Assembly (NCBI RefSeq): GCF_946886105.1
Contig: NZ_CAMPHV010000008.1
Span: 86,779 to 150,778 of the forward strand
Origin: an uncultured Pseudomonas sp.
Lineage (GTDB): Bacteria; Pseudomonadota; Gammaproteobacteria; Pseudomonadales; Pseudomonadaceae
Reading direction: 5' to 3'
DNA length: 64,000 nt
Each line of letters starts with the position of its first letter. The stretch's first letter is position 1. Both the position numbers and the translations under genes were made by a program. The notes beneath the pieces were generated by a model. That model made no database searches. It saw only the letters and a program-made list of their open reading frames with translations, and had not been told where the DNA came from. Below, piece after piece: positions 19,848-54,415 of this stretch.

Positions 19848-20188
19848 GTAGCCCGGGTCGAGCACAGCGACACCCGGAAATCTGCCCTGGGTATCGCTCC
19901 GCTCAACCCAGGCTACGGCCTCGAGGAATGCGGTACCGTAGCTCGGGTCGAGCGCAGCGACACCCGGGAATCTGCCCTGGGTATCGCTTCGCTCAACCCA
20001 GGCTACGCCCTTGAGGAATGCGGTACGGTAGCCCGGGGCGAGCGCAGCGACACCCGGGAAACCTGCCCTGGGTATCGCTTCGCTCAACCCAGGCTACGCC
20101 CTTGAGGAATGCCGTACCGTAGCTCGGGTCGAGCGCAGCGACACCCGGGAAATCTGCCCTGGGTATCGCGGCGCTCAACCCAGGCTAC
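19848..20188. repeat. Four tandem copies of a 90-bp double-hairpin repeat
   Basis: Copies start at 19848, 19938, 20028 and 20119 (periods 90, 90 and 91). Each 69-70 base core holds two hairpins: one from CCCGGGT pairing with ACACCCGGG, the other from CCTGGGT pairing with ACCCAGG. Cores are joined by a 21-base linker of the form GCCCTTGAGGAATGCGGTAC. They fill the gap between the binding-protein gene and the phosphatase gene. Confidence 0.95.
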
Positions 20189-27647: not shown

Positions 27648-27985
27648 CGGCTGCGCTGGTATTGCTGGCTACCCTGCCCCGGCAATGTCTGCACCTCATA
27701 ACCGTTGGGATACTCGATGCTCTGACGAATAGCGCCGCGGCTTTCTACCGATTGGCTGCTTGAGTGGCTTTCATAACGCCTGAGCGTACCGTCGCCCGGC
27801 AAGCGTTGGCCGCCATACAGATTATGTTGCTCGTAGTGCTGCGAGCTGCCGATGCTGCCACTGGCACCTGGGCTGATGTAGGTTTTCGGGATGACACGAA
27901 TCTCCTGTGGGGCCTGGGAGTCGGCATAAACCGGCGATACCAGCGCCACGCCGAGAATGACCAATAGGCGAACAAAAACTGTCAT
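27644..27985 (-). CDS. Small secreted protein of unknown function
   Basis: A 113-residue protein with a Sec signal (MTVFVRLLVILGVALVSPVYA). The mature part is polar and rich in Ser, Gln, Tyr and Gly (SSQHYEQHNLYGGQRLPGDGTLRRYESHSSSQS), ending IEYPNGYEVQTLPGQGSQQYQ. No domain is recognised. Composition suggests a periplasmic protein with little hydrophobic core. The predicted signal and normal coding bias support a real gene. Confidence 0.6.
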   Translation of the reverse strand: MTVFVRLLVILGVALVSPVYADSQAPQEIRVIPKTYISPGASGSIGSSQHYEQHNLYGGQRLPGDGTLRRYESHSSSQSVESRGAIRQSIEYPNGYEVQTLPGQGSQQYQRSR

Positions 27986-28141
27986 GGCAACCTCTGCATC
28001 ATGCGATCTGGAGTGTGGCTACCTGCTCATTGCGTAGCTGGGTGAGCGAACAGAGCAACGCGCAATACCGACACCAGCCATAGCCTATAAGGGCAAAGAC
28101 TACTTGAGCACTTCGCGAAAGAATAGCAGCTTGGCGAGCGC

Positions 28142-28471
28142 TTAAACCGGCACTGAAAGCATTAAATGAATAGGATACATGGCATACACCATCAGGCCCG
28201 TAATTAAACAGGCTGCCAGCGAAACACGCCCCAAGTAAGCCCTTAGATTGTTATTAAAGAAAGTAGCGATCAGAAAGGCGCCAATAAGCAGCGGCGAGAC
28301 AAGCCAGCCAGGCCCGATGGAAAATGCCATAGCGGACCAAGCTGGAACACCGCCGTACATTGAGGCGAATACATTTTCAAATTGCCTAACAGTCACTTCC
28401 GAACAATACCAAGCGATCAAGGATTGGGCAGCAGCAAATAGTATCGATAGAAGTACGGCTATTATTTTCAC
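28142..28471 (-). CDS. Small polytopic membrane protein, possible integron cassette gene
   Basis: A 109-residue hydrophobic protein (MKIIAVLLSILFAAAQSLIAWYC ... GPGWLVSPLLIGAFLIATFF ... VSLAACLITGLMVYAMYPIHL) with three or four predicted helices. The gene is clearly lower in GC than neighbouring chromosomal genes and lies at the distal end of the minus-strand cassette-like array. No clear attC site was found beside it, so its membership is inferred from strand, size and composition. Function unknown. Confidence 0.6.
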   Translation of the reverse strand: MKIIAVLLSILFAAAQSLIAWYCSEVTVRQFENVFASMYGGVPAWSAMAFSIGPGWLVSPLLIGAFLIATFFNNNLRAYLGRVSLAACLITGLMVYAMYPIHLMLSVPV

Positions 28472-28579
28472 TTTGATTACCTAGGATTGTCTTTAAGACA
28501 AATAACAAACTACAAACATCAACAATAAAGTTAAGGGAGTGTGTCAGCGCGCCCCAGTGAACGACCGATTAGATCAAGC

Positions 28580-28933
28580 CTAAATGGACGCACCATCGTA
28601 TACCTGAAAAGGCAGCGCTGATGAATCCATTCCCTCTATGCATCCGAGATTTATGCGATAGTGACCTGGCTTTCTCATTGTTTGGTGAAATGGATAGATC
28701 CCACACTTGCTACAAAAGTGGTGCTTTGCAATGTGGCTACCGAATTCGTAGGTTGACAGAGAGCCTGGAGTTGCAGTGATAAGCAAATCATTAGGTGCCA
28801 AAATGAATGCACTCATAATGGCACCTTTTCGCTGGCAAATAGAACAGTTGCAGCGCAATCCGCTTTCAATGGTTGGGGCCGAGAACTCGAATTTTACTGC
28901 ACCGCAATGGCAACTTCCCTTGTATTGCTGCAT
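28580..28933 (-). CDS. GFA family (glutathione-dependent formaldehyde-activating-like) zinc protein
   Basis: A 117-residue GFA/CENP-V-fold protein starting MQQYKGSCHCGAVKFEF. It has the zinc cysteines: CHCG near residue 9, CNCSICQRKG near residue 30, and FCSKCGIYPFHQ near residue 75. The start was chosen for AGGAGGT just upstream, although the frame is open further. GFA proteins are common in integron cassettes and the wider accessory genome; the real substrate is usually unknown. It sits among low-GC minus-strand genes of the degenerate integron. Confidence 0.85.
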   Translation of the reverse strand: MQQYKGSCHCGAVKFEFSAPTIESGLRCNCSICQRKGAIMSAFILAPNDLLITATPGSLSTYEFGSHIAKHHFCSKCGIYPFHQTMRKPGHYRINLGCIEGMDSSALPFQVYDGASI

Positions 28934-29198
28934 ATAACCTCCTGCGTGATCGGACAGTTTAAGGGACGCAAGCGAAGCTTGTGGGCGTTTTGGGTGAGAA
29001 AAACGAACAGCCTTGAACACTTGCCCAGCTGCGCGAACGACAGAGTGGCCAGGGCTAAAAGCCCAAAACAGGCCAGATATACGAATGCAACCGCGCTGAC
29101 GACAGGCTCGAAAAGCTATTCCTCACCGCTTGCGGGGAGAGTCCATATACAATTGTTATGCTGCTCAAATTTCTGATTGGTAATTTAGAATTGTTATG

Positions 29199-29594
29199 TT
29201 ATGCATTTTTTGGAAGCCGAAATTTTCCCAGTGCAGTGGAGTACCACTGGCCTAAATATTTTACCCAAATAGAGCTAAATGATGTCTTGGTTTGCTCATT
29301 ATAATAAACTGAGTATTCAACTTTTATTGCTGGATTAGAACCGTATAATTCTGATTTTGGATGAAACTCCGCAATTTGAAAAGCTCCCAATTCTGCAGTT
29401 TCGATTGAAGCTAAAAAATCTGTGATTGAATCTATTGTCAGCTGAGGCTCATCGGTTCGCTCCCGCTCTCGTTTCTCGCGTATGGCCGGCAAGATAAGAT
29501 CATATAGCGCGGCAGCATCCCCTGTGACTTCAGCCTGAATCTGTTCTTGAATTCGGGCTTCAATTTCTATTTTGTAATTTTCTGGTGGCTTCAT
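29199..29594 (-). CDS. Integron cassette gene, unknown function
   Basis: A 131-residue, probably cytosolic protein: a charged helical N-terminus (MKPPENYKIEIEARIQEQIQ ... REKRERERTDEPQLT) and a C-terminal beta-rich part (IKVEYSVYYNEQTKTSFSSIWVKYLGQWYSTALGKF). That layout recalls NTF2-like small domains, without a firm match. It starts 12 bases after the attC site at 29607-29689, the usual close spacing of a cassette gene, and its TAA stop lies inside a GCATAAC core-like heptamer (29198-29204). AT-rich relative to the chromosome. Confidence 0.65.
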   Translation of the reverse strand: MKPPENYKIEIEARIQEQIQAEVTGDAAALYDLILPAIREKRERERTDEPQLTIDSITDFLASIETAELGAFQIAEFHPKSELYGSNPAIKVEYSVYYNEQTKTSFSSIWVKYLGQWYSTALGKFRLPKNA

Positions 29595-29606
29595 TTTTTT
29601 GATTAG

Positions 29607-29689
29607 GCATAACGTTGTAGGTAAGGGGCGCTGCGCGGCGCTTTATCGCGCAGCGTCCAGAGGGAGCGGCCTTGACCGCGGTGTTAGGC
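29607..29689 (-). other. attC recombination site of an integron cassette
   Basis: Read on the minus strand, the site opens with GCCTAAC and closes with GTTATGC, the R'' and R' core heptamers of attC. Between them lies an 83-bp imperfect palindrome (for example GCTGCGCG pairing with CGCGCAGC). It lies directly after the gene at 29708-30124 and just before the next cassette gene, exactly where an attC belongs. Confidence 0.85.
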
Positions 29690-29707
29690 CGAGTGCTGGA
29701 TTGCACG

Positions 29708-30124
29708 TTATTTCCCTGCTCTGTCCTTGATAAGCTCACGGCAACGATATGCAAGCCAGTGGTTTTTGTCAGCCAATCCTGAAAGCACTGCTTCCATCTC
29801 GTGTTCGTCGATAAACGGGTAGACCTCCAAATGAAGGGCAATACGCAGTTTTCGGTTGTCTAGGCCCTCTCGAAGCCAGTCTTCAATGGCGCGCGTGACG
29901 CTTGCGCCATTGTCGTTGGTGCGCCACGCAAGCAGGTCGAACAGGTCACAAACTACTTCGTAACGCACAGAACGGGGAATTTCGCTATACAAACGGTCTG
30001 CGAGACCATCCTCGCCAAATTCCTCAACTAACGCGGACAAGACGTCCTCATCAAGCGATTTCCAGCCGCCCTCATCTCGACTCAGGCAAACCGTGTCGAT
30101 TGCTTGCGCTACCAGTGGGTGCAT
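29708..30124 (-). CDS. Integron cassette gene, unknown helical protein
   Basis: A 138-residue acidic, largely helical protein (MHPLVAQAIDTVCLSRDEGGWKSLDEDVLSALVEEFGEDGLADRLYSE ... LHLEVYPFIDEHEMEAVLSGLADKNHWLAYRCRELI). No domain recognised. Its ATG lies only five bases after the end of the upstream attC (30130) and its stop 18 bases before the next attC, so gene plus 3' attC makes one complete cassette. Such cassettes usually rely on a promoter in the integron platform. Confidence 0.7.
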   Translation of the reverse strand: MHPLVAQAIDTVCLSRDEGGWKSLDEDVLSALVEEFGEDGLADRLYSEIPRSVRYEVVCDLFDLLAWRTNDNGASVTRAIEDWLREGLDNRKLRIALHLEVYPFIDEHEMEAVLSGLADKNHWLAYRCRELIKDRAGK

Positions 30125-30129
30125 GAGAG

Positions 30130-30205
30130 GCCTAACGTTTGGTTAAGGGGCGGGCTTTAGCCCGTCCCAGTGAGCGAAGCGAACGATTTGAACCAGTTGT
30201 TATGC
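30130..30205 (-). other. attC recombination site of an integron cassette
   Basis: On the minus strand the site reads GCATAAC ... GTTAGGC. The inner arms are CTGGTTCAA and TTAACCAAAC (L'' and L'), with a central stem GACGGGCT / AGCCCGCC. At 76 bp it has the right length and symmetry for attC. The HEPN gene's stop codon touches it on one side and the next cassette's start lies five bases away on the other. Confidence 0.88.
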
Positions 30206-30826
30206 TTACCAAGGACTCTTGCCGATAACAAGGACGGCTTTTTCACCGACTTTTTCATCAAGTTTTTTTGCAAGAGTTTCGATGAACTGCTTAAGTGATG
30301 TAACTTTTTGCTTTGTTATTGCTTCTTTCTTGCCGTGAGCAATCTTATTTCTTGTTTCCAAGTAACCTGTTAGGCGTGACTTTACAGACTTGTTGTCACA
30401 TTTCTGCCAGCTGATTGAGTCCATGACTTCGTATATAGCTAGCCCTGAAAACATTTGATTGATGACATTTACATGCGGATTGCTGCGCGGCGGTTTGATT
30501 AGTTTTATGACAGCTGTAGGATCGTTTGCCTTACCCTTTAGAATTACAGCTCCTGCCTCTGCATGGAGGTCATCTACGAAGCCTTGGAAATGTGCGGTTA
30601 GTAGCACAAAAGCAGCTCTATTAATTGCATCTACCTCTTTGGGTTTTCCGCGGCCAGGGTCAGTTACTAGCGCATGCATGACCGAAGATATTTTGGCGAG
30701 CTCTCCACCGGCCTTTTGAGCCGCAGACTCTGCATTATTAAATTTCGTAATGGCAGAGTGCGCCTTGATCAATTGATCGATATCTTTTAGGCGCTCATGG
30801 AGGCTGCTCAGTGCTTTAGATGTCAT
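30206..30826 (-). CDS. RiboL-PSP-type HEPN domain protein, first integron cassette
   Basis: A 206-residue protein with a HEPN-like fold. The early helix pair (about 66-92) contains INRAAFVLLTAHFQGFVDDLHAEAG, and the late motif RNKIAHG (residues 159-165) gives the Rx4-6H signature of HEPN ribonucleases. This arrangement is typical of RiboL-PSP-HEPN/MAE_28990-type proteins, usually found in toxin-antitoxin or defence settings. No separate antitoxin gene is seen beside it. It is the cassette nearest the integrase stub, with attC (30130-30205) directly after the stop. RNase activity is inferred. Confidence 0.7.
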   Translation of the reverse strand: MTSKALSSLHERLKDIDQLIKAHSAITKFNNAESAAQKAGGELAKISSVMHALVTDPGRGKPKEVDAINRAAFVLLTAHFQGFVDDLHAEAGAVILKGKANDPTAVIKLIKPPRSNPHVNVINQMFSGLAIYEVMDSISWQKCDNKSVKSRLTGYLETRNKIAHGKKEAITKQKVTSLKQFIETLAKKLDEKVGEKAVLVIGKSPW

Positions 30827-30978
30827 CGGATTTCCTTATGCATAACTATAAATATAGACACCAATTGGTGCATAACCTGCCGAACGGGACTGGTGGATAA
30901 CATTCCTTGTCCTTTCTGGCGAGCGCTCTAGCCTGGGCCTTGCAGCGGCCGAATGACCCTATAAGGGAGTTATACACC
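30827..30978. other. Probable attI and promoter region of the integron
   Basis: This 152-base gap lies between the integrase stub (plus strand) and the first cassette gene (minus strand). Read on the minus strand it holds two GTTATGC heptamers (plus-strand GCATAAC at 30840-30846 and 30870-30876) that could be the attI crossover core. The plus-strand end carries AAGGGAG before the stub's ATG. Which heptamer is the crossover is undecided. Confidence 0.55.
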
Positions 30979-31083
30979 ATGGACGGAAAGCCCCGGTTGC
31001 TCGCGCAGATGCGCGAGCAGATTCGTCCGAACACTACTCTATTCATGCCGAATGCGTCTATTGAGAATGGGGAATGGCCTTAA
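30979..31083 (+). pseudogene. N-terminal stub of an integron integrase (intI remnant)
   Basis: A 34-codon frame begins MDGKPRLLAQMREQIRP, which matches the P-x-LL-x-Q-x-R-x-x-IR opening of integron integrases. The reading then continues NTTLFMPNASIENGEWP and stops, without the expected HYSxRTExxY sequence. AAGGGAG is well placed upstream. It is divergent from the cassette array across an attI-like gap, the standard position and orientation of intI. The gene appears cut after about 17 codons and no tyrosine-recombinase catalytic boxes are seen downstream, so the integron can no longer recombine by itself. Confidence 0.7.
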
Positions 31084-31326
31084 CTGCACAGCCCTGCATA
31101 TGCAGGCTGGATAGGCCGACTGGAAGATCTATATTCAAGGCCACAGGCTTTCAAGCGAAGCCGGCTGGGTGGCTGTGTCTAGGGGGTAGAAGATTCGAGG
31201 CTAATCGCGGTCTTCTGCTGGGCCAGCTGCAAACATAGGCAGCGTGCATTTCTTTGATAAGCCTTTGTCCCGCATAGCGCTGTACGGAAATGTGTACGAT
31301 TCGCGCTGCTGATCAGCCTTCAAAGT
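31084..31326. other. Intergenic remnant between the intI stub and the carbonic anhydrase terminator
   Basis: About 240 bases with no recognisable gene on either strand. A short GCATATGC palindrome lies near 31096. No integrase C-terminal motifs were found in any frame. It may be what replaced the deleted part of intI. Confidence 0.45.
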
Positions 31327-31356
31327 AAAAGGGGCCGTTATAAACGGCCCCCTTTT
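31327..31356 (-). terminator. Bidirectional-type terminator after carbonic anhydrase
   Basis: AAAAGGGGCCGTT pairs with AACGGCCCCCTTTT around a short TAT-type loop. It has A/T runs on both sides and lies 17 bases beyond the carbonic anhydrase stop codon. It could also stop transcription coming from the integron side. Confidence 0.85.
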
Positions 31357-31373
31357 ACTCAGCTTCGAGCCGA

Positions 31374-32102
31374 TTATTCCAACACAGGACGTGCGTTAAC
31401 AGCCTGTACGGGGCGGTTGTTGTGATGATGAATCACATGCAGGAACTGATCTATTTGTTCTTTGGATGCGGAGATCGGTTGTTTCATTACCAGCCAGCGC
31501 ACGCCTTCAGAGCAAGGCGGTGTGGTCAGCGAACCATTGAAGCGGTAGTAGTCGCGCTTAGCAGGCAGGATTTCCAGGGGGGAGATATCTGACGACAGCG
31601 CTACTTTTTCGCCCTTCTTCGGCATTTGCGCCCAGGCTTTTGCAAGTGCCTTGTTTGCCTCTCCTTCGGTAACCATCACGGCGACTACGGCCAGGTTGCC
31701 ATTCTTATCGGCATGGACGAGATGCCCTTCCATGGGATAGGACTTGCCATGTATCTGATTTTCGCTCGGCACATGGAAGTGGAATTGTTTCAATTCGAAT
31801 TCGATGTCATCGACGGTGATGGTGCTGCCCGGGGTAGCGTTTACCTGAACGGTGTGGCCGTTATTGAGAATCTCCGAACTGCCAGCCTTGTAGTTGAAAA
31901 CAATGGGCTTCAGTTTGGCATCGATAAAGCCAGTCAAGTTGATCGGCGACTGATTGCTCCCGGCACATGAGCTGTACTCGGGGCTGAGTTTTGCCCAGTT
32001 ATCGGGCCCTGCGTCGCCAGTGTAGTCCCAAGCGGCGCCATCACTGGAAAATGCGAAACTTGAAAACAACAACATACCGGCTGCAATCAATGCTCTTTTC
32101 AT
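31374..32102 (-). CDS. cah: Periplasmic alpha-class carbonic anhydrase
   Basis: A 242-residue alpha-carbonic anhydrase with a Sec signal (MKRALIAAGMLLFSSFAFSSD). Key motifs: SNQSPINL near residue 60, the zinc histidines FHFHVPSENQIHG and EGHLVHAD, and the C-terminal RFNGSLTTPPCSEGVRWLVMKQPISAS. It interconverts CO2 and bicarbonate in the periplasm. The ATG at 32102 has AGGTAG upstream; the frame extends 13 codons further without a signal-like sequence. It is read in the same direction as the two-component genes but 66 bases beyond them. Confidence 0.95.
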   Translation of the reverse strand: MKRALIAAGMLLFSSFAFSSDGAAWDYTGDAGPDNWAKLSPEYSSCAGSNQSPINLTGFIDAKLKPIVFNYKAGSSEILNNGHTVQVNATPGSTITVDDIEFELKQFHFHVPSENQIHGKSYPMEGHLVHADKNGNLAVVAVMVTEGEANKALAKAWAQMPKKGEKVALSSDISPLEILPAKRDYYRFNGSLTTPPCSEGVRWLVMKQPISASKEQIDQFLHVIHHHNNRPVQAVNARPVLE

Positions 32103-32168
32103 GGTTCTACCTCGTGAATGCCTTATCGACGGAAGCGGCACGATAGAAGGACGGGCGTTAAGAACACG

Positions 32169-33419
32169 TTAAGAATCGCGCACTATCGGAAACGTCAGGA
32201 CGAAGCGAGTGCCCCCTGCTTGCGGAATTTCCAGGCGTACGTCCCAGCCGACATGGTCGACCACACGTTTGACGATCGACAGGCCCAGGCCAGTGCCTTC
32301 GTGTGCCGGCAAGTCGTCGCCGTGGACAAATCGTTCGAACAGCCGCTCGCGCACCTTCTGGGGAATGCCCGAGCCAGTGTCTTCAATCACCAACCGACCA
32401 GCAGCGAGCTGAACCAGGACCTGGCCCTGCTCGGTGTGTCGACAGGCATTGCGCAGCAGATTGCCGATCACGATGCCAGCCAGCTCGGGCCGCACATGGA
32501 CCGAGACCTCCTCGCTCCAATCCAATCTGCATTCGACCGGTTTGCCGTGCAACAGAGGCCGGCAGCGCTCGATTTCCGACTTGATGATGCTGTTGAGAAC
32601 GATGCGTGGCGCATCCAGAGATTCGGGAACACGCGCAAGCAGGAGCAATGCACTGACCCCTTGCGCCGCTTCGGCCGCGACGCGCCGGATGCGTTCCGCC
32701 GTGGCCAGTTGTGCCGGGCGGTCGGCCAGCTGCGCGGTCAGTACCTCGGCTGCGCCTAACATGATGGTCAAGGGCGTGCGTAGCTCATGGCTGACATCGC
32801 CTGTGAACAGTCGCTCGCGCTGCAAAAACTGTTGGAGTTCGTCGGTGCGCTTGGCGAAGGCGCGCGCCAAGATACCGATTTCGTCTTGCGCGGAAAGGGA
32901 AGGCAATTCAGTCGGCCCGGCGTTGCGACCGACCGCTTCGGCAAGCGCCGCTACCGGGGCGATTATCCGCTTAGCGCACACTACCCCGAGTACAGCGGCG
33001 AGCAGCAGACTGACGGCAAAGCCGATTGCCAGAGACAGGAGAATCACCAGTTCCGTGTGCTCGAGTTCGTCGACCTCCTGCACCACCGCGTAGCGGCTGG
33101 AGCCGTGATCGCGTAGCAGCACATGCACGTGTCGATTGCCGAGCCCCACTTCATGGGAACCGGCGGGTAGCTGGCGCAACTCGGCGGGAATCCTGTCGTC
33201 GATCATGAAGCGTATGTCCGGCGGCGCATCCGGCATGCGCCCACCCGGCTGGAGTTCGATCAACCTGTCCGCCATCTTGGACAAGCGCGCATCGATTACC
33301 TGCTCTTCGATGACCTCCACCGAAATATAGGAAACCAGGCTGAAGGCGCCGGCCACTATGACCGCCAACAGAATATAGGTGAGCGAAATACTCTGTTTGA
33401 GCGAAAGTCTAGGTTTCAC
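32169..33419 (-). CDS. Two-component sensor histidine kinase, ColS-like
   Basis: A 416-residue kinase: helix at residues 12-32, a periplasmic domain of about 100 residues, a second helix about 123-148, a HAMP linker (KRIIAPVAALAEAVGRNAG), HisKA with FTGDVSHELRTPLTIMLGAAEVL (His near residue 220), and HATPase boxes NLLRNACRHT, DTGSGIP and GTGLGLSIVKRV. The start is GTG and overlaps the end of the response-regulator gene by 11 bases, so the pair is co-translated. The sensed signal is unknown. Confidence 0.9.
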   Translation of the reverse strand: MKPRLSLKQSISLTYILLAVIVAGAFSLVSYISVEVIEEQVIDARLSKMADRLIELQPGGRMPDAPPDIRFMIDDRIPAELRQLPAGSHEVGLGNRHVHVLLRDHGSSRYAVVQEVDELEHTELVILLSLAIGFAVSLLLAAVLGVVCAKRIIAPVAALAEAVGRNAGPTELPSLSAQDEIGILARAFAKRTDELQQFLQRERLFTGDVSHELRTPLTIMLGAAEVLTAQLADRPAQLATAERIRRVAAEAAQGVSALLLLARVPESLDAPRIVLNSIIKSEIERCRPLLHGKPVECRLDWSEEVSVHVRPELAGIVIGNLLRNACRHTEQGQVLVQLAAGRLVIEDTGSGIPQKVRERLFERFVHGDDLPAHEGTGLGLSIVKRVVDHVGWDVRLEIPQAGGTRFVLTFPIVRDS

Positions 33420-34092
33420 CGGGTGCCGCCAGTCGATAGCCGGTGCCCGGCAGGGTCAGCAGCATGGGATAGGGAAACGGCTTGTCGAGCACCTGACGCA
33501 AGGTATGGATATGGGTACGCAAGGCATCGCTATCCGGCGGGCTATCGCCCCAAACCTCACGCTCGACCGCTTCACGCGTCATCAGTGTCGGTGCGGCACG
33601 CATCAGCGCGGTGAGTATCTTGTAACCCGTCGGCGTCAGGTCGAGCAACTGCCCGGCACGTGTCACCCGGCCGGTGCCCGCGTCCAGCCGCAGCTCGCCG
33701 AAGCTCAGCACCGATTGCACATGCTCGTTGCGCGAGCGGCGCACTAGAGCCTTCAGGCGCGCATCCAACTCGGGGAGGGAATAGGGCTTGACCAGGTAAT
33801 CGTCGGCGCCGACCTCGAAACCCGTCAATTTGTCGTGTTCCGTATCGCGCGCGGTCAACATCAGGATCGGCGTCGCCAGCCGATATTCCTGGCGGAGCGT
33901 TCGGCATACCTCCACGCCATCCATGCCCGGCAACGACAGATCGAGAATGATCGCGTCGTGAAAGGCAGCCGTTGCGCGGGCCACACCGGCATTGCCATTG
34001 CGCACCACATCCAGCGTATAGCCGAGTGGTTCCAGATATCCGAAGAGGTTCGCGATGATATCCGGGTTGTCCTCGACGATCAGCACATGCAT
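33409..34092 (-). CDS. OmpR-family response regulator, ColR-like
   Basis: A 227-residue regulator: receiver (residues 1-115, LIVEDNPDI acidic pocket, phosphoacceptor Asp in AIILDLSLPGMDG, MLTARD, LVKPYSL) and a winged-helix DNA-binding domain (about 125-220, LTPTGYKILTALMRAAPTLMTREAVEREVWGD ... LRTHIHTLRQVLDKPFPYPMLLTLPGTGYRL). The second ATG, at 34092, is preferred because GGGA lies five bases before it; the ATG at 34107 has a ribosome site too close. The receiver resembles ColR (VEDNxDIxANLxxYL). Confidence 0.9.
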   Translation of the reverse strand: MHVLIVEDNPDIIANLFGYLEPLGYTLDVVRNGNAGVARATAAFHDAIILDLSLPGMDGVEVCRTLRQEYRLATPILMLTARDTEHDKLTGFEVGADDYLVKPYSLPELDARLKALVRRSRNEHVQSVLSFGELRLDAGTGRVTRAGQLLDLTPTGYKILTALMRAAPTLMTREAVEREVWGDSPPDSDALRTHIHTLRQVLDKPFPYPMLLTLPGTGYRLAAPGET

Positions 34093-34107
34093 CAGTTTCC
34101 CGTCCAT

Positions 34108-34950
34108 CTTCCTATACCGTACTCGGCCTGACTGCTATGAGGGGAATGCATGATTTTGGCTCATTATCATGCGGATCTGCCAGGCAAGCCCCTGCCCTTT
34201 CCATTCAGCAGTTCGGCTATTTGAGAACCATGACAGGAAAACAATGATCGTCCGTTTAATTGTTCGGCGTCCATCTGGGCGCCTTTTTAGCTAACTCATT
34301 GTTGTGAGTGCCAAAAAAAACCAGTTATTCAACCACTTCCGAGCCCGCCGGTAGGGGGCACCCTACCGACATCATCATTAGGCTTACTTAAATTCAGTAT
34401 TCCCCGATAGGCACTGTGTCTTGGCACCTTCATCATAAGCCACTGTTTCGACATTACTGATTCCGAATACGGAAAAGCTAAGCAGTGTCGCTAACGGGTT
34501 GATTCACTCGAATGGCTTGGATGTCGGCTCATGGCTTTTTCTTGGGATAACGAGTGACTCCCCCGGGCATTGAAAGGGGAGGTGTGTATGTTTGAGTCAT
34601 GTTCGTTTAGCCGTCCGGGACATTCCGGACGAGCAGCTATCGATACGTCCTGGTGGCCTGTATTGGGTGGCGTCGACCGCATCGACGATGCCGAAAACCC
34701 TGGCGGTACAGGCGTGATGGCATTACCCGCGCAGCATCGGGCGCCCTTGGTATGGCCAGCCTGCGCCGATTCGGCGATATCGCCGCCATGGTGGATGGCG
34801 CTTTCTATTCGTTCCCGTTCGCTTGGCGCAGCAATGGCCTGGGGTAGCCCCTTGAGCGATAGCTGGCGATTGCCGTGGCGCGACCTTGGCCACAGGACTT
34901 CACGCAGTCAACCGCCACCATCGGGAGATGGCGGTAGAGGAGTTCGATAG
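34108..34950. other. Long intergenic region of mixed composition
   Basis: An 840-base gap between divergent regulatory genes. It is AT-rich at 34190-34500, then high in GC. A GGCGTCC/GGGCGCC hairpin with TTTTT lies at 34266-34288. A 126-codon frame ends one base before the kinase start (34570-34950), with GGGGAGG upstream of an inner ATG, but its proline-, serine- and arginine-rich composition is not protein-like and no family is recognised. A GTCCGG...CCGGAC inverted repeat is present near 34615. Confidence 0.4.
34266..34288 (+). terminator. Orphan terminator-like hairpin
   Basis: GGCGTCC and GGGCGCC form a seven-pair stem (one G-T pair) around ATCT, followed by TTTTT. No gene ending here on the plus strand is recognised, so the gene it served may be lost. 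Confidence 0.5.
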
Positions 34951-37446
34951 ATGGTGCGAGACAATCCCAACGTCGTATCCCATAAGCATTCATTGACCAC
35001 ACGCGCCCTGCGCCTTGCTGTAATACGCATTGGTCTGGTGTCCCTGGCCGCGGGGGCGATTTCCTACCACGTCAATTCATCCTCGATCGAGCGAGAAGTG
35101 ACTGGGCAACTGCTGCTGTCTACCGAGCAATCCTTGCAACGCGAGTCCTTGCCGTTTCGTGAAATCAAGGACCTGCAGCAGAACTTCCTCATGGAGTTCA
35201 AGGAGACTCTGAGCCGTCCGGGCATGGAGGCCACGCTGGTCAACGACTTTCGACAGATTTTCTATCGTCACGAGGATGGTTCTTATACGCAACGTCCGCA
35301 GCTGTTCGAAGGCCAGCCGCTGGCCGACGGGCGGCGTTTTGCTGGAATGTCGGCGACCTACGCGCCCGATATTGCGCCCGACGAAAACACCCAGGCGCGA
35401 TTTGCCCTGTCGTATCTGCTATCCCACAAGTACGGTTCGAGCGCCAAGGGCCGGTTGTTCAACTTCTACGGCGTGGTGCCGGAAAAAGGCTTCCCCATCT
35501 ACCAGGAGGCCGATATCGCCAAGGTGTTCACCTACTCGGGGCCGGACGCCCTGGAACTTGAAACCTATGAATTCTATGCGCGGGGTTTCGGTACGCCGGC
35601 AAACGACACGCTGTTTACTCGCATGTATTGGGACTACTCCAATAACGCCTGGATGACGACCGTCGCTACCGCCGACGTGGCCGATGCCTCTGGAAAGCAC
35701 GCTATTCTGGCCTGTGTCGATGTGCTGCTTGATGATCTGATGGAACGGATTGCCAAGCCCGCGATACAGGGTGCGTACAGCTCACTGTTCATCGCCGACG
35801 GGGACGGCACGCTGATTTACCATCCCACCGCGATGGAACAGGTCAAAAGCACCGCGGGCGAGGCGTCCATCCGCTCGCTCAAGATGGCTAAGGATTACCC
35901 GCTGCTCGACGCCGTTGCTGGTCTCACGCCTGGCCAGGCGCGAATCGTCCAGACAGAGGACAACATCGTCGCGATGGGTTTCATTCCCGAGACCCCCTGG
36001 GTGCTTGCCGTGCACTATCCGCGGACGCTGATGACACCGGCCATTTACGACAACTTGGTTATCGTCGTCGCTCTCGGTTTGCTGACCCTGCTGGTGGAAA
36101 TTTTTATCCTGCGATCCATTTTGCAAAAGCAGGTGGCCCTCCCACTGTTCCGGTTCGTCCAGGCTACACGGCTCTTGGGCGTCGGCAAGACGCGCCTGTG
36201 CCCTGAGCACCTCCCCATCCAGTCCGAAGACGAAATCGGTGAGCTGGCCCGTGCCTTTGCCAAAATGGCCGAGCGGGTCCAGGACGCACAGGAGCATCTG
36301 GAACTCAAGGTACAAGAGCTTACACGTCAGACCAGCCACCTGACTGCGATTGCCAAGGAACGTGAGCGTGCCGAGACGTTGCTGCTGGCCCGCGAGCAGG
36401 AATTCCGGGCCTTGGTGGAAAACACCCCCGATGTTATCTCACGCTTTGATCTGCAGTGCCGTTGCCTCTATGCAAACCCCGCAGCGCAAAAAGTACTTGG
36501 CCATTCGCTGGACTTCCTGCGAAACAAGAATTTGCACGAGGTTTTCCCGGATTCGGATGTAGCGCGCTTCTTTCAGCACAAGCTCGAACATCTTATCGGT
36601 ACGAATAACGCGTCCGAAGAAGAAGTATCGATCAGCATCCCGGTAAAACGGCGCACGGAGATTGCCAGTTACCAAGTACGCCTGGTGCCGGAACGCGATC
36701 AACACGGGGCATTGGTGAGTATCCTTTCCGTCGGACGCAACGTCAGTGCCATGCATGCAGCCGAACAGCGCCTCAAGGAGTCCCATGCACAACTGCGCCA
36801 GCTATCCACTCACCGGGAAGCCATGCGTGAAGAAGAGCGTAAACGCATCGCGCGGGAAATCCATGACGAACTGGGCCAGCAACTCACCGCGCTGCGCATG
36901 GGCCTTTCGCTACTGCGCCTGCAATTCGGCGAAGGCCAATCGTTATTGGTAGAGCGGATCCAGATATTGATGGGGCGGATCGACGAAATCATTCAAGTCG
37001 TTCGCAACGTCGCCACCGCCTTGCGGCCCTCATCCCTCGATATGGGGTTGACGTCAGCACTCGAATGGTTGGTCTCCGAGTTTTCGAACAACACTGGCAT
37101 CACCTGTCGGCTCAGGGCACCCGAGGCCAGACTGGAGCTGGATGACGAGCGCGCCACTGCGGTCTTTCGTGTCATCCAGGAATCGCTGACCAACGTCGCC
37201 CGACATGCGCAGGCGAGCCGGGTGGACATTCACCTGGAATGTTCTACCGAACACGTCCTGATTAAAGTCGCCGACAATGGCAAAGGCTTCGATCCAAGTC
37301 AGTTGCCCAAGGGCACGCTGGGAATGCTCGGCATGCATGAGCGCGGACACATGCTCGGCGGAACGGTGACCATCGACAGCACCCCGGGGCGGGGAGTCTG
37401 TGTGCAGGTGTGTATTCCCTTTCAAATAGACCCCGAAACCCCATGA
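34951..37446 (+). CDS. NarL-type hybrid-less sensor kinase with periplasmic sensor and PAS domain
   Basis: An 831-residue membrane kinase: helix near residues 25-45, a large periplasmic sensor (about 50-365, Cache-like, YSSLFIADGDGTLIYHP), a second helix about 370-390, HAMP (QVALPLFRFVQATRLLGVGKT), a PAS domain (about 475-600, LVENTPDVISRFDLQCRCLYANPAA), then HisKA_3 with RKRIAREIHDELGQQLTALRMGL (His near residue 640) and a HATPase (VIQESLTNVARHAQASR, DNGKGFDPSQLPKGTLGMLGMHERG). Such kinases pair with LuxR/NarL-type regulators. Its partner gene overlaps it (ATGA) but is truncated, so the pathway here is broken or uses another regulator. Confidence 0.9.
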   Translation: MVRDNPNVVSHKHSLTTRALRLAVIRIGLVSLAAGAISYHVNSSSIEREVTGQLLLSTEQSLQRESLPFREIKDLQQNFLMEFKETLSRPGMEATLVNDFRQIFYRHEDGSYTQRPQLFEGQPLADGRRFAGMSATYAPDIAPDENTQARFALSYLLSHKYGSSAKGRLFNFYGVVPEKGFPIYQEADIAKVFTYSGPDALELETYEFYARGFGTPANDTLFTRMYWDYSNNAWMTTVATADVADASGKHAILACVDVLLDDLMERIAKPAIQGAYSSLFIADGDGTLIYHPTAMEQVKSTAGEASIRSLKMAKDYPLLDAVAGLTPGQARIVQTEDNIVAMGFIPETPWVLAVHYPRTLMTPAIYDNLVIVVALGLLTLLVEIFILRSILQKQVALPLFRFVQATRLLGVGKTRLCPEHLPIQSEDEIGELARAFAKMAERVQDAQEHLELKVQELTRQTSHLTAIAKERERAETLLLAREQEFRALVENTPDVISRFDLQCRCLYANPAAQKVLGHSLDFLRNKNLHEVFPDSDVARFFQHKLEHLIGTNNASEEEVSISIPVKRRTEIASYQVRLVPERDQHGALVSILSVGRNVSAMHAAEQRLKESHAQLRQLSTHREAMREEERKRIAREIHDELGQQLTALRMGLSLLRLQFGEGQSLLVERIQILMGRIDEIIQVVRNVATALRPSSLDMGLTSALEWLVSEFSNNTGITCRLRAPEARLELDDERATAVFRVIQESLTNVARHAQASRVDIHLECSTEHVLIKVADNGKGFDPSQLPKGTLGMLGMHERGHMLGGTVTIDSTPGRGVCVQVCIPFQIDPETP

Positions 37447-37562
37447 TCAAACTAATGATCGCCGACGACCACGCCGTCATGCTTGAAGGCTTTAAGCAAT
37501 TGTTCGCACTGCCCGGTGATGTTCAGGCGTGGCCGCAGCGGAAAACGGCGTCCTGTAGCTGA
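37443..37562 (+). pseudogene. Truncated NarL-type response regulator
   Basis: An ATG overlapping the kinase stop begins MIKLMIADDHAVMLEGFKQL, the opening of a NarL/FixJ receiver with its acidic DD pair. After about 28 codons (FALPGDVQ) the sequence changes to AWPQRKTASCS and stops. The phosphoacceptor Asp (near residue 54), the rest of the receiver and the LuxR-type DNA-binding domain are missing. The break lies about 120 bases from the 3' end of tRNA-Thr, a usual junction for genomic islands. Confidence 0.8.
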
Positions 37563-37590
37563 AACGAAAACGACGGAACGCCAAAACGAG

Positions 37591-37615
37591 AAAACCTGCC
37601 AGAAGGCAGGTTTTT
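37591..37615 (-). terminator. Terminator of tRNA-Thr
   Basis: ACCTGCC and GGCAGGT pair around AGAA with A- and T-runs on either side. It lies 44 bases beyond the tRNA 3' end on the minus strand and could also stop plus-strand transcription from the kinase gene. Confidence 0.8.
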
Positions 37616-37658
37616 CGGGGGGTTCAGAGACTTTGCTGGCTTTCTCTGGAACTTCAAA

Positions 37659-37734
37659 TGGTGCCGGAGATAGGAATCGAACCTACGACCTTCGCGTTAC
37701 GAGTGCGCTGCTCTACCGACTGAGCTACACCGGC
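37659..37734 (-). tRNA. tRNA-Thr (anticodon CGT)
   Basis: The minus strand gives a full cloverleaf: acceptor GCCGGTG, D-loop AGCTCAGTCGGTAGAGC, anticodon loop CTCGTAA (CGT, reading ACG), T-loop GGTTCGATTCC and an encoded CCA. The 3' end is the likely attachment site for whatever DNA truncated the neighbouring response regulator. No second copy of the tRNA 3' sequence was noticed in the window. Confidence 0.95.
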
Positions 37735-54268: not shown

Positions 54269-54415
54269 TAACAGGCCGTTGAAAACGTAGGCGAGGCAGG
54301 CAAGACAAGGACTAGGCGTCCCCACAAAAACGGCCGAAAAAGCGGACTGGGCTCGCACGCGAGGCCGTTTTTAACGCGGTATTGCCAACGCAGGTAGTTT
54401 TTCAACGGCCTGCTA
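54269..54415. mobile_element. MITE-like element with 17-bp terminal inverted repeats
   Basis: A 147-bp element begins TAACAGGCCGTTGAAAA and ends with the complement of TAGCAGGCCGTTGAAAA (16 of 17 positions agree). The inside is non-coding, with a further inverted pair around AAAAACGGCC/GGCCGTTTTT. It lies between two converging genes, and its right end supplies the TAG stop of the Sel1 gene. No transposase is encoded. Confidence 0.8.

Follow-up and report, generated by a model that had tools for sequence, protein, structure and literature searches.

Very probable remains of a Pseudomonas stutzeri-type integron without an integrase in an uncultured Pseudomonas

We analysed a stretch of 64,000 nucleotides from an uncultured Pseudomonas sp. 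(contig NZ_CAMPHV010000008.1, positions 86,779 to 150,778 of the forward strand; hereafter the window), in which a low-GC island is very probably an integrase-less remnant of an integron of the Pseudomonas stutzeri type. GC content is 47% at 28–31 kb and 52% at 31–32 kb, against 61–62% in the neighbouring kilobases (27–28 and 32–34). The island carries five minus-strand open reading frames (ORFs) of 109, 117, 131, 138 and 206 amino acids (aa), all in one orientation and reading away from attI. This count agrees with the four or five small low-GC genes listed in a first-pass annotation of the sequence, which had taken the locus for a fossil integron that lost its integrase and kept its cassettes. 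That reading is borne out by attC matches, by homology at attI and intI, and by an integrase stub of 31 codons.

Read in gene direction, the locus consists of a divergent intI stub, the attI region, the HEPN cassette, attC1, the 138-aa cassette, attC2, the 131-aa cassette, attC3 (split by a remnant of an insertion sequence, IS), the GFA cassette, the degenerate attC4 and the 109-aa ORF. The attC-bounded cassettes thus share one orientation, with two clear, one marginal and one IS-split attC site. The start of the GFA gene at 28933, beside the attC3 core, is our choice; the ORF list puts it further upstream.

30979..31070, plus strand: stub of an intI pseudogene (tblastn E 4e-5 at best; nucleotide alignment with nine relatives)
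30840..30978, minus strand: attI region, with the junction core GTTATGC at 30846–30840 on the minus strand (alignment; 72–82% nucleotide identity to attI/intI starts)
30206..30826, minus strand: cassette 1, HEPN protein of 206 aa, PF18735, RNKIAH motif (ORF, Pfam, alignment)
30130..30205, minus strand: attC1, 76 bp, foldable strand plus (101.6 bits; hairpin; 81–99% identity to other arrays)
29708..30124, minus strand: cassette 2, all-helical protein of 138 aa, function unknown (ORF)
29607..29689, minus strand: attC2, 83 bp (30.7 bits, E 9e-5; hairpin)
29199..29594, minus strand: cassette 3, protein of 131 aa, function unknown (ORF)
28932..29160, minus strand: attC3, split by the IS remnant, R'' core GCATAAC at 29160–29154, other arm at 28932–29017 (sequence reading)
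29013..29148, plus strand: right-end remnant of an IS1111-attC-type element (83–88% identity to copies in L104–L106; copies in plasmids and other genomes)
28580..28933, minus strand: cassette 4, GFA-family protein, 117 aa from the chosen start, PF04828 (ORF, Pfam)
28517..28585, minus strand: attC4, degenerate, probable (model R1, 16.2 bits, E 0.22; model R2, 14.3 bits, E 0.91, in part)
28142..28471, minus strand: cassette 5, probable, 109-aa ORF, function unknown (ORF; no attC seen after it)

attC sites, attI and the integrase stub

Two attC-like sites had been placed by the first-pass annotation at 29607–29689 and 30130–30205. Both sets of coordinates proved exact, running from R box to R box, and both sites are matched by covariance models; the count of two fell short, as the degenerate, marginal site at 28517–28585 and the IS-split site at 28932–29160 had been overlooked. 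The complementary R''/R' heptamers that it saw at cassette junctions are indeed perfectly complementary in all three cassettes with two clear boundaries (GTTATGC/GCATAAC for 30206–30826, GTTAGGC/GCCTAAC for 29708–30124 and GTTATGC/GCATAAC for 29199–29594). attC1 shares 81–99% identity with attC sites of cassette arrays in Pseudomonas. Its stretch was matched in 81 plasmid records, attC1 itself being the matched part in the 20 matches listed.

For covariance modelling we collected 71 candidate attC sites from L097, a cassette array on a contig of a viral collection, and from eight intI-bearing loci. Thirteen were dropped (IS-interrupted, redundant, off-register or, by eye, not attC-like), and the remaining 58, from L097 and seven intI-bearing loci, gave two models from which the window sequence was excluded: R1, with an automatic structure of nine pairs, and R2, with a structure hand-written as attC. 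R1 returned three matches in the window at E ≤ 10, all within the array and on a single strand: 30130–30205 at 101.6 bits, a score that is partly circular because attC1 served as a BLAST query in gathering training sites; 29607–29689, which was not so used, at 30.7 bits (E 9e-5); and 28517–28585 at 16.2 bits (E 0.22). R2 returned four, namely attC1 (101.9 bits), attC2 (28.2 bits), attC4 in part (14.3 bits, E 0.91) and the opposite strand of attC1 (E 1.4); across 12 other loci totalling 238,425 bases it had no match at E ≤ 10. With filters off, nine places in 27900–31400 appeared at E ≤ 10, the five besides the main ones reaching 8.7 bits at most. The matches therefore stand above noise with models that are our own rather than those of IntegronFinder.

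With RNA energies, attC1 and attC2 fold box to box into attC hairpins on the strand opposite the genes. DNA-energy folding closed the boxes in one of the four strands tried, and RNA energies were adopted for a motif-plus-fold caller since the other three were left open. This caller gave five candidates in the window, four of them attC1 and attC2 on both strands, and an average of 0.21 in 300 shuffles of the island. When DNA energies were used in a separate fold script, none of 14 loci, among them known arrays, yielded a site at the pairing cut-off, and the window gave one candidate not listed before; an Rfam scan at gathering thresholds returned three tRNAs and no attC.

Upstream of the cassettes, 30840–31074 aligns at 72–82% nucleotide identity with the attI/intI start of nine short integron loci of P. 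stutzeri type, and an alignment with nine longer integron loci gives a common start codon at 30979. The attI-like gap of the first-pass annotation corresponds to 30840–30978, which aligns with the relatives' attI, so that a putative attI, recognized by homology to nine relatives, lies beside the intI start. In this attI, the window carries a 2-nucleotide insertion relative to all nine relatives. The integrase-like stub is also upheld: residues 1–31 of the 321-aa P. stutzeri-type IntI are left, disrupted by a frameshift and a stop, with residues 1–16 and 18–31 matching in two frames and the stop in the second (tblastn E 4e-5 at best, up to 0.008). Homology to intI ends at 31070–31074. By protein and nucleotide alignment, the stub is homologous to P. 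stutzeri-type intI. A full-length intI, as in a complete integron, is missing, and no further IntI piece was found in the 64-kb window. Neither Pfam nor NCBIfam recognized the stub, and 31050–31400 had no plasmid matches.

The NCBIfam IntI model scored above its cut-off in 25 of 199 Pseudomonas-group genomes, several of the best matches being short or interrupted by stops (G454, G460, G473, G495, G499 and G393). Broken intI genes are ordinary, amounting to nearly one third in one survey (excerpt of PMC2426708) and 43% in another (excerpt of PMC3108266). Elsewhere in the window, 54269–54415 (about 150 bp) shows 76% identity to part of the broken intI in L104/L087 and may represent a small mobile repeat that hit an integrase gene at another locus as well.

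An intact IntI would once have inserted circular cassettes at attI by recombination with their folded attC, and the HEPN cassette would have been the last captured, because it is nearest to attI. Loss of intI past codon 31 would have frozen the array. Cassette expression would depend on whatever promoters remain. The boxes and hairpins of attC1 and attC2 are preserved, and the 138-aa cassette that these sites enclose might therefore still be cut out by an IntI provided in trans.

Cassette genes and the insertion-sequence remnant

The HEPN protein matches PF18735 at 50 bits (cut-off 28.4) and has the R-x4-6-H motif of the domain, with R159, N160, A163 and H164 invariant in 31 aligned sequences. 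Motif, putative fold and relatives suggest that the cassette most likely encodes a ribonuclease that acts in the response to stress or phage. Integron cassettes with HEPN proteins have been described, PDB 3jrt being named in the available part of PMC3710099; the window protein is likewise a cassette-borne HEPN protein with an R-x4-H motif, its Pfam type being RiboL-PSP-HEPN. A sequence search of solved structures with the HEPN protein did not have 3jrt among its matches. The gene had one weak match (27% identity) among the 199 genomes. In plasmid records there was one match for HEPN (28%), one for the 138-aa protein (32%) and 211 for the GFA protein, all below 60%. The 138-aa protein as query found a 28-residue match in a single viral-collection locus, and fold searches with HEPN and 138-aa models gave no match at E ≤ 0.001. 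We considered whether HEPN is a purely integron-borne gene and rejected this, since an 87% homologue in L136 has no attC by either covariance model. That homologue, at L136:2528–3621, sits between phage-like genes; the gene family travels outside integrons too.

The third attC site records a different event, in which an attC-targeting IS struck the array and then decayed. The part that remains, 136 bp at 29013–29148, matches, at 83–88% identity, the right ends of the L104–L106 elements, and two right-end copies in L104 have an adjoining transposase gene. Most of the element, including its transposase and left end, has been lost: no DEDD transposase ORF or left end was found in the region, right-end matches begin at 29013, and the element is cut off at TTGAA (29013–29017). 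The surrounding 28930–29180 was matched in 24 of the 199 genomes, a few weakly, and in 51 plasmid records, one of which holds an IS110-family element beside aadB on a Stutzerimonas plasmid. According to the accessible portion of PMC11187229, the IS1111-attC elements ISPst6 and ISKpn4 target one attC end under the direction of a guide RNA that comes from the noncoding stretch following the transposase gene. The window shares with them a right end adjoining the attC R box, 5–6 bases from the R core (as also in L104 and L114), but keeps only the 136-bp right end, without transposase or left end.

TTGAA is common to the attC and the IS noncoding region in nearly all copies read, and on this single example may be part of the IS guide. 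An RNA-guided IS1111 would carry a short copy of its attC target, here TTGAA, in the right-end noncoding region, so that insertion would place the element between two short direct repeats, one of them brought by the element. A deletion running from the target to that copy would take out the left end, transposase and guide, leaving a solo right end in a lengthened attC. That the remnant is a scar produced in this way by the targeting sequence of the element itself seems to us improbable. A recurrent scar of this kind was rejected, as the junction with an attC arm that the window shows does not recur among 28 right-end matches in the loci compared (25 distinct places; one partial, one without upstream sequence). 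Other sequence lies upstream of the right end in L128 and L134, L130 looks like an internal deletion, and no match among the 199 genomes spans the attC arm and the IS end together. In the portions of the literature at hand, which no search aimed at such scars had supplied, we met no account of a solo right end left as a scar with its junction at a target/guide repeat.

Genomic surroundings and alternative explanations

Loci of relatives were anchored on an ABA4-like gene, the carbonic anhydrase gene of the window being a poor anchor (best relatives Marinobacter and Halomonas-type). All six relatives reaching both flanks (L092, L098–L102) lack the array segment at the orthologous place: they match up to 27.95 kb and then, within 0.15–0.96 kb, from 37.66–37.83 kb on. 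The stretches from G234, G466 and G574 are too short to tell, and more distant genomes matched at the ABA4-like gene only. This absence, together with the single weak match to HEPN among the 199 genomes, does not agree with a stable core operon, which the first-pass annotation had named as the contrary outcome. The variable segment measures roughly 9.7 kb (27.98–37.66 kb) and ends at the 3' end of a tRNA-Thr, detected by ARAGORN in one of the six relatives' loci. At 37446–37734, where the variable place ends at tRNA-Thr(CGT), a short open stretch after a sensor kinase resembles the start of a cut-off response regulator.

Inside the segment, 31328–34134 holds genes for a carbonic anhydrase, a histidine kinase and a response regulator and is, by sequence comparison, likely an acquired block: five of 38 fetched loci match it over its length at 77–82% nucleotide identity with the order kept (Marinobacter, Halomonas, two Litchfieldella and Billgrantia). 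rimO lies at most 3.3 kb from intI in 10 of 30 short loci and in 7 of 10 longer loci; with four genomes represented in both sets, this makes 13 genomes. The association comes from the present comparison and is not a published definition. Among eight longer intI-side flanks, six share sequence mutually, L104 shares none and L111 only 191 bases; none of the eight shares sequence with the window. With no rimO close to it, the platform may have moved or may represent a second integron.

We put the probability that the locus is an integrase-less remnant of a P. stutzeri-type integron at about 0.93. Several results weigh against it. Neither covariance model detected attC3, attC4 is marginal in both, and no attC was seen after the 109-aa ORF, which makes it no more than a probable cassette. 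rimO is unmatched in the window, unlike in 13 related genomes. None of the three promoter-like matches in the region, where chance would give 4.2, is directed from attI into the array. The motif-plus-fold caller gives weak evidence, averaging 2.7 candidates (0 to 8) in 20 first-order Markov shuffles of the window, a figure that would suit ordinary low-GC genes with chance palindromes between them and no integron at all. That account is scarcely credible: the covariance-model matches, the attI/intI alignment and the IS remnant together contradict it. Finally, an intact intI may exist elsewhere in the genome, as the intI search covered the 64-kb window only. An array still turning over, served in trans by such an integrase, would fit the preserved boxes and hairpins of attC1 and attC2 and the IntI matches above the family cut-off in 25 of 199 genomes. 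We consider it unlikely, given that the 64 kb hold no other IntI piece, that attI has an insertion relative to nine of nine relatives, and that attC3 is split and attC4 degenerate.

A variant of the remnant interpretation deserves more weight, although we would bet somewhat against it: the integron part, perhaps already broken, came with the 9.7-kb tRNA-Thr segment and the Halomonas-like carbonic anhydrase/two-component block, rather than decaying as a resident. Absence of the segment from this place in all six relatives, its end at the 3' end of tRNA-Thr, the 77–82% identity of 31328–34134 to loci of Marinobacter, Halomonas, Litchfieldella and Billgrantia, and the lack of rimO in the window are all consistent with import. 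However, no direct repeat of the tRNA end of at least 12 bases occurs elsewhere in the window, the ORF list, to which this check was confined, notes no island integrase, and the attI/intI start is of the type carried in relatives' chromosomes; stepwise gain of the parts is equally possible.

Relation to described integrons

Studies of P. stutzeri chromosomal integrons, cited in PMC2426708, reportedly appeared in 2003 and 2005. Such integrons share with the window a homologous attI with a divergent intI start and the attC type of their arrays, whereas in the window intI is cut to 31 codons, the platform is not near rimO and the array is short, with split and degenerate attC sites. For the chromosomal integrons of this group, an excerpt of PMC3108266 names strains Q and BAM. 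A cluster of attC sites lacking an integrase (CALIN) has been proposed to be a degraded integron (IntegronFinder 2.0; PMC9024848, in extract). Judged with our own covariance models rather than those of IntegronFinder, the window likewise has at least two attC sites and no integrase, its only IntI piece being the stub; it differs in retaining attI and that stub, so that its origin is visible.

A degraded, CALIN-like integron is an already described category, such relics are common, and the locus leaves current understanding unchanged. What it offers is a well-resolved example of integron death, with the integrase cut short, attI kept and an attC-seeking IS in the array. A few cassettes persist, one of which encodes a HEPN protein of a type associated with responses to stress or phage, and a P. 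stutzeri-type platform is seen away from rimO. Outside the array, at 19848–20188, four copies of about 70 bp at a spacing of about 90 bp form repetitive extragenic palindromic (REP)-like repeats, which are also matched beside the integron in L106.

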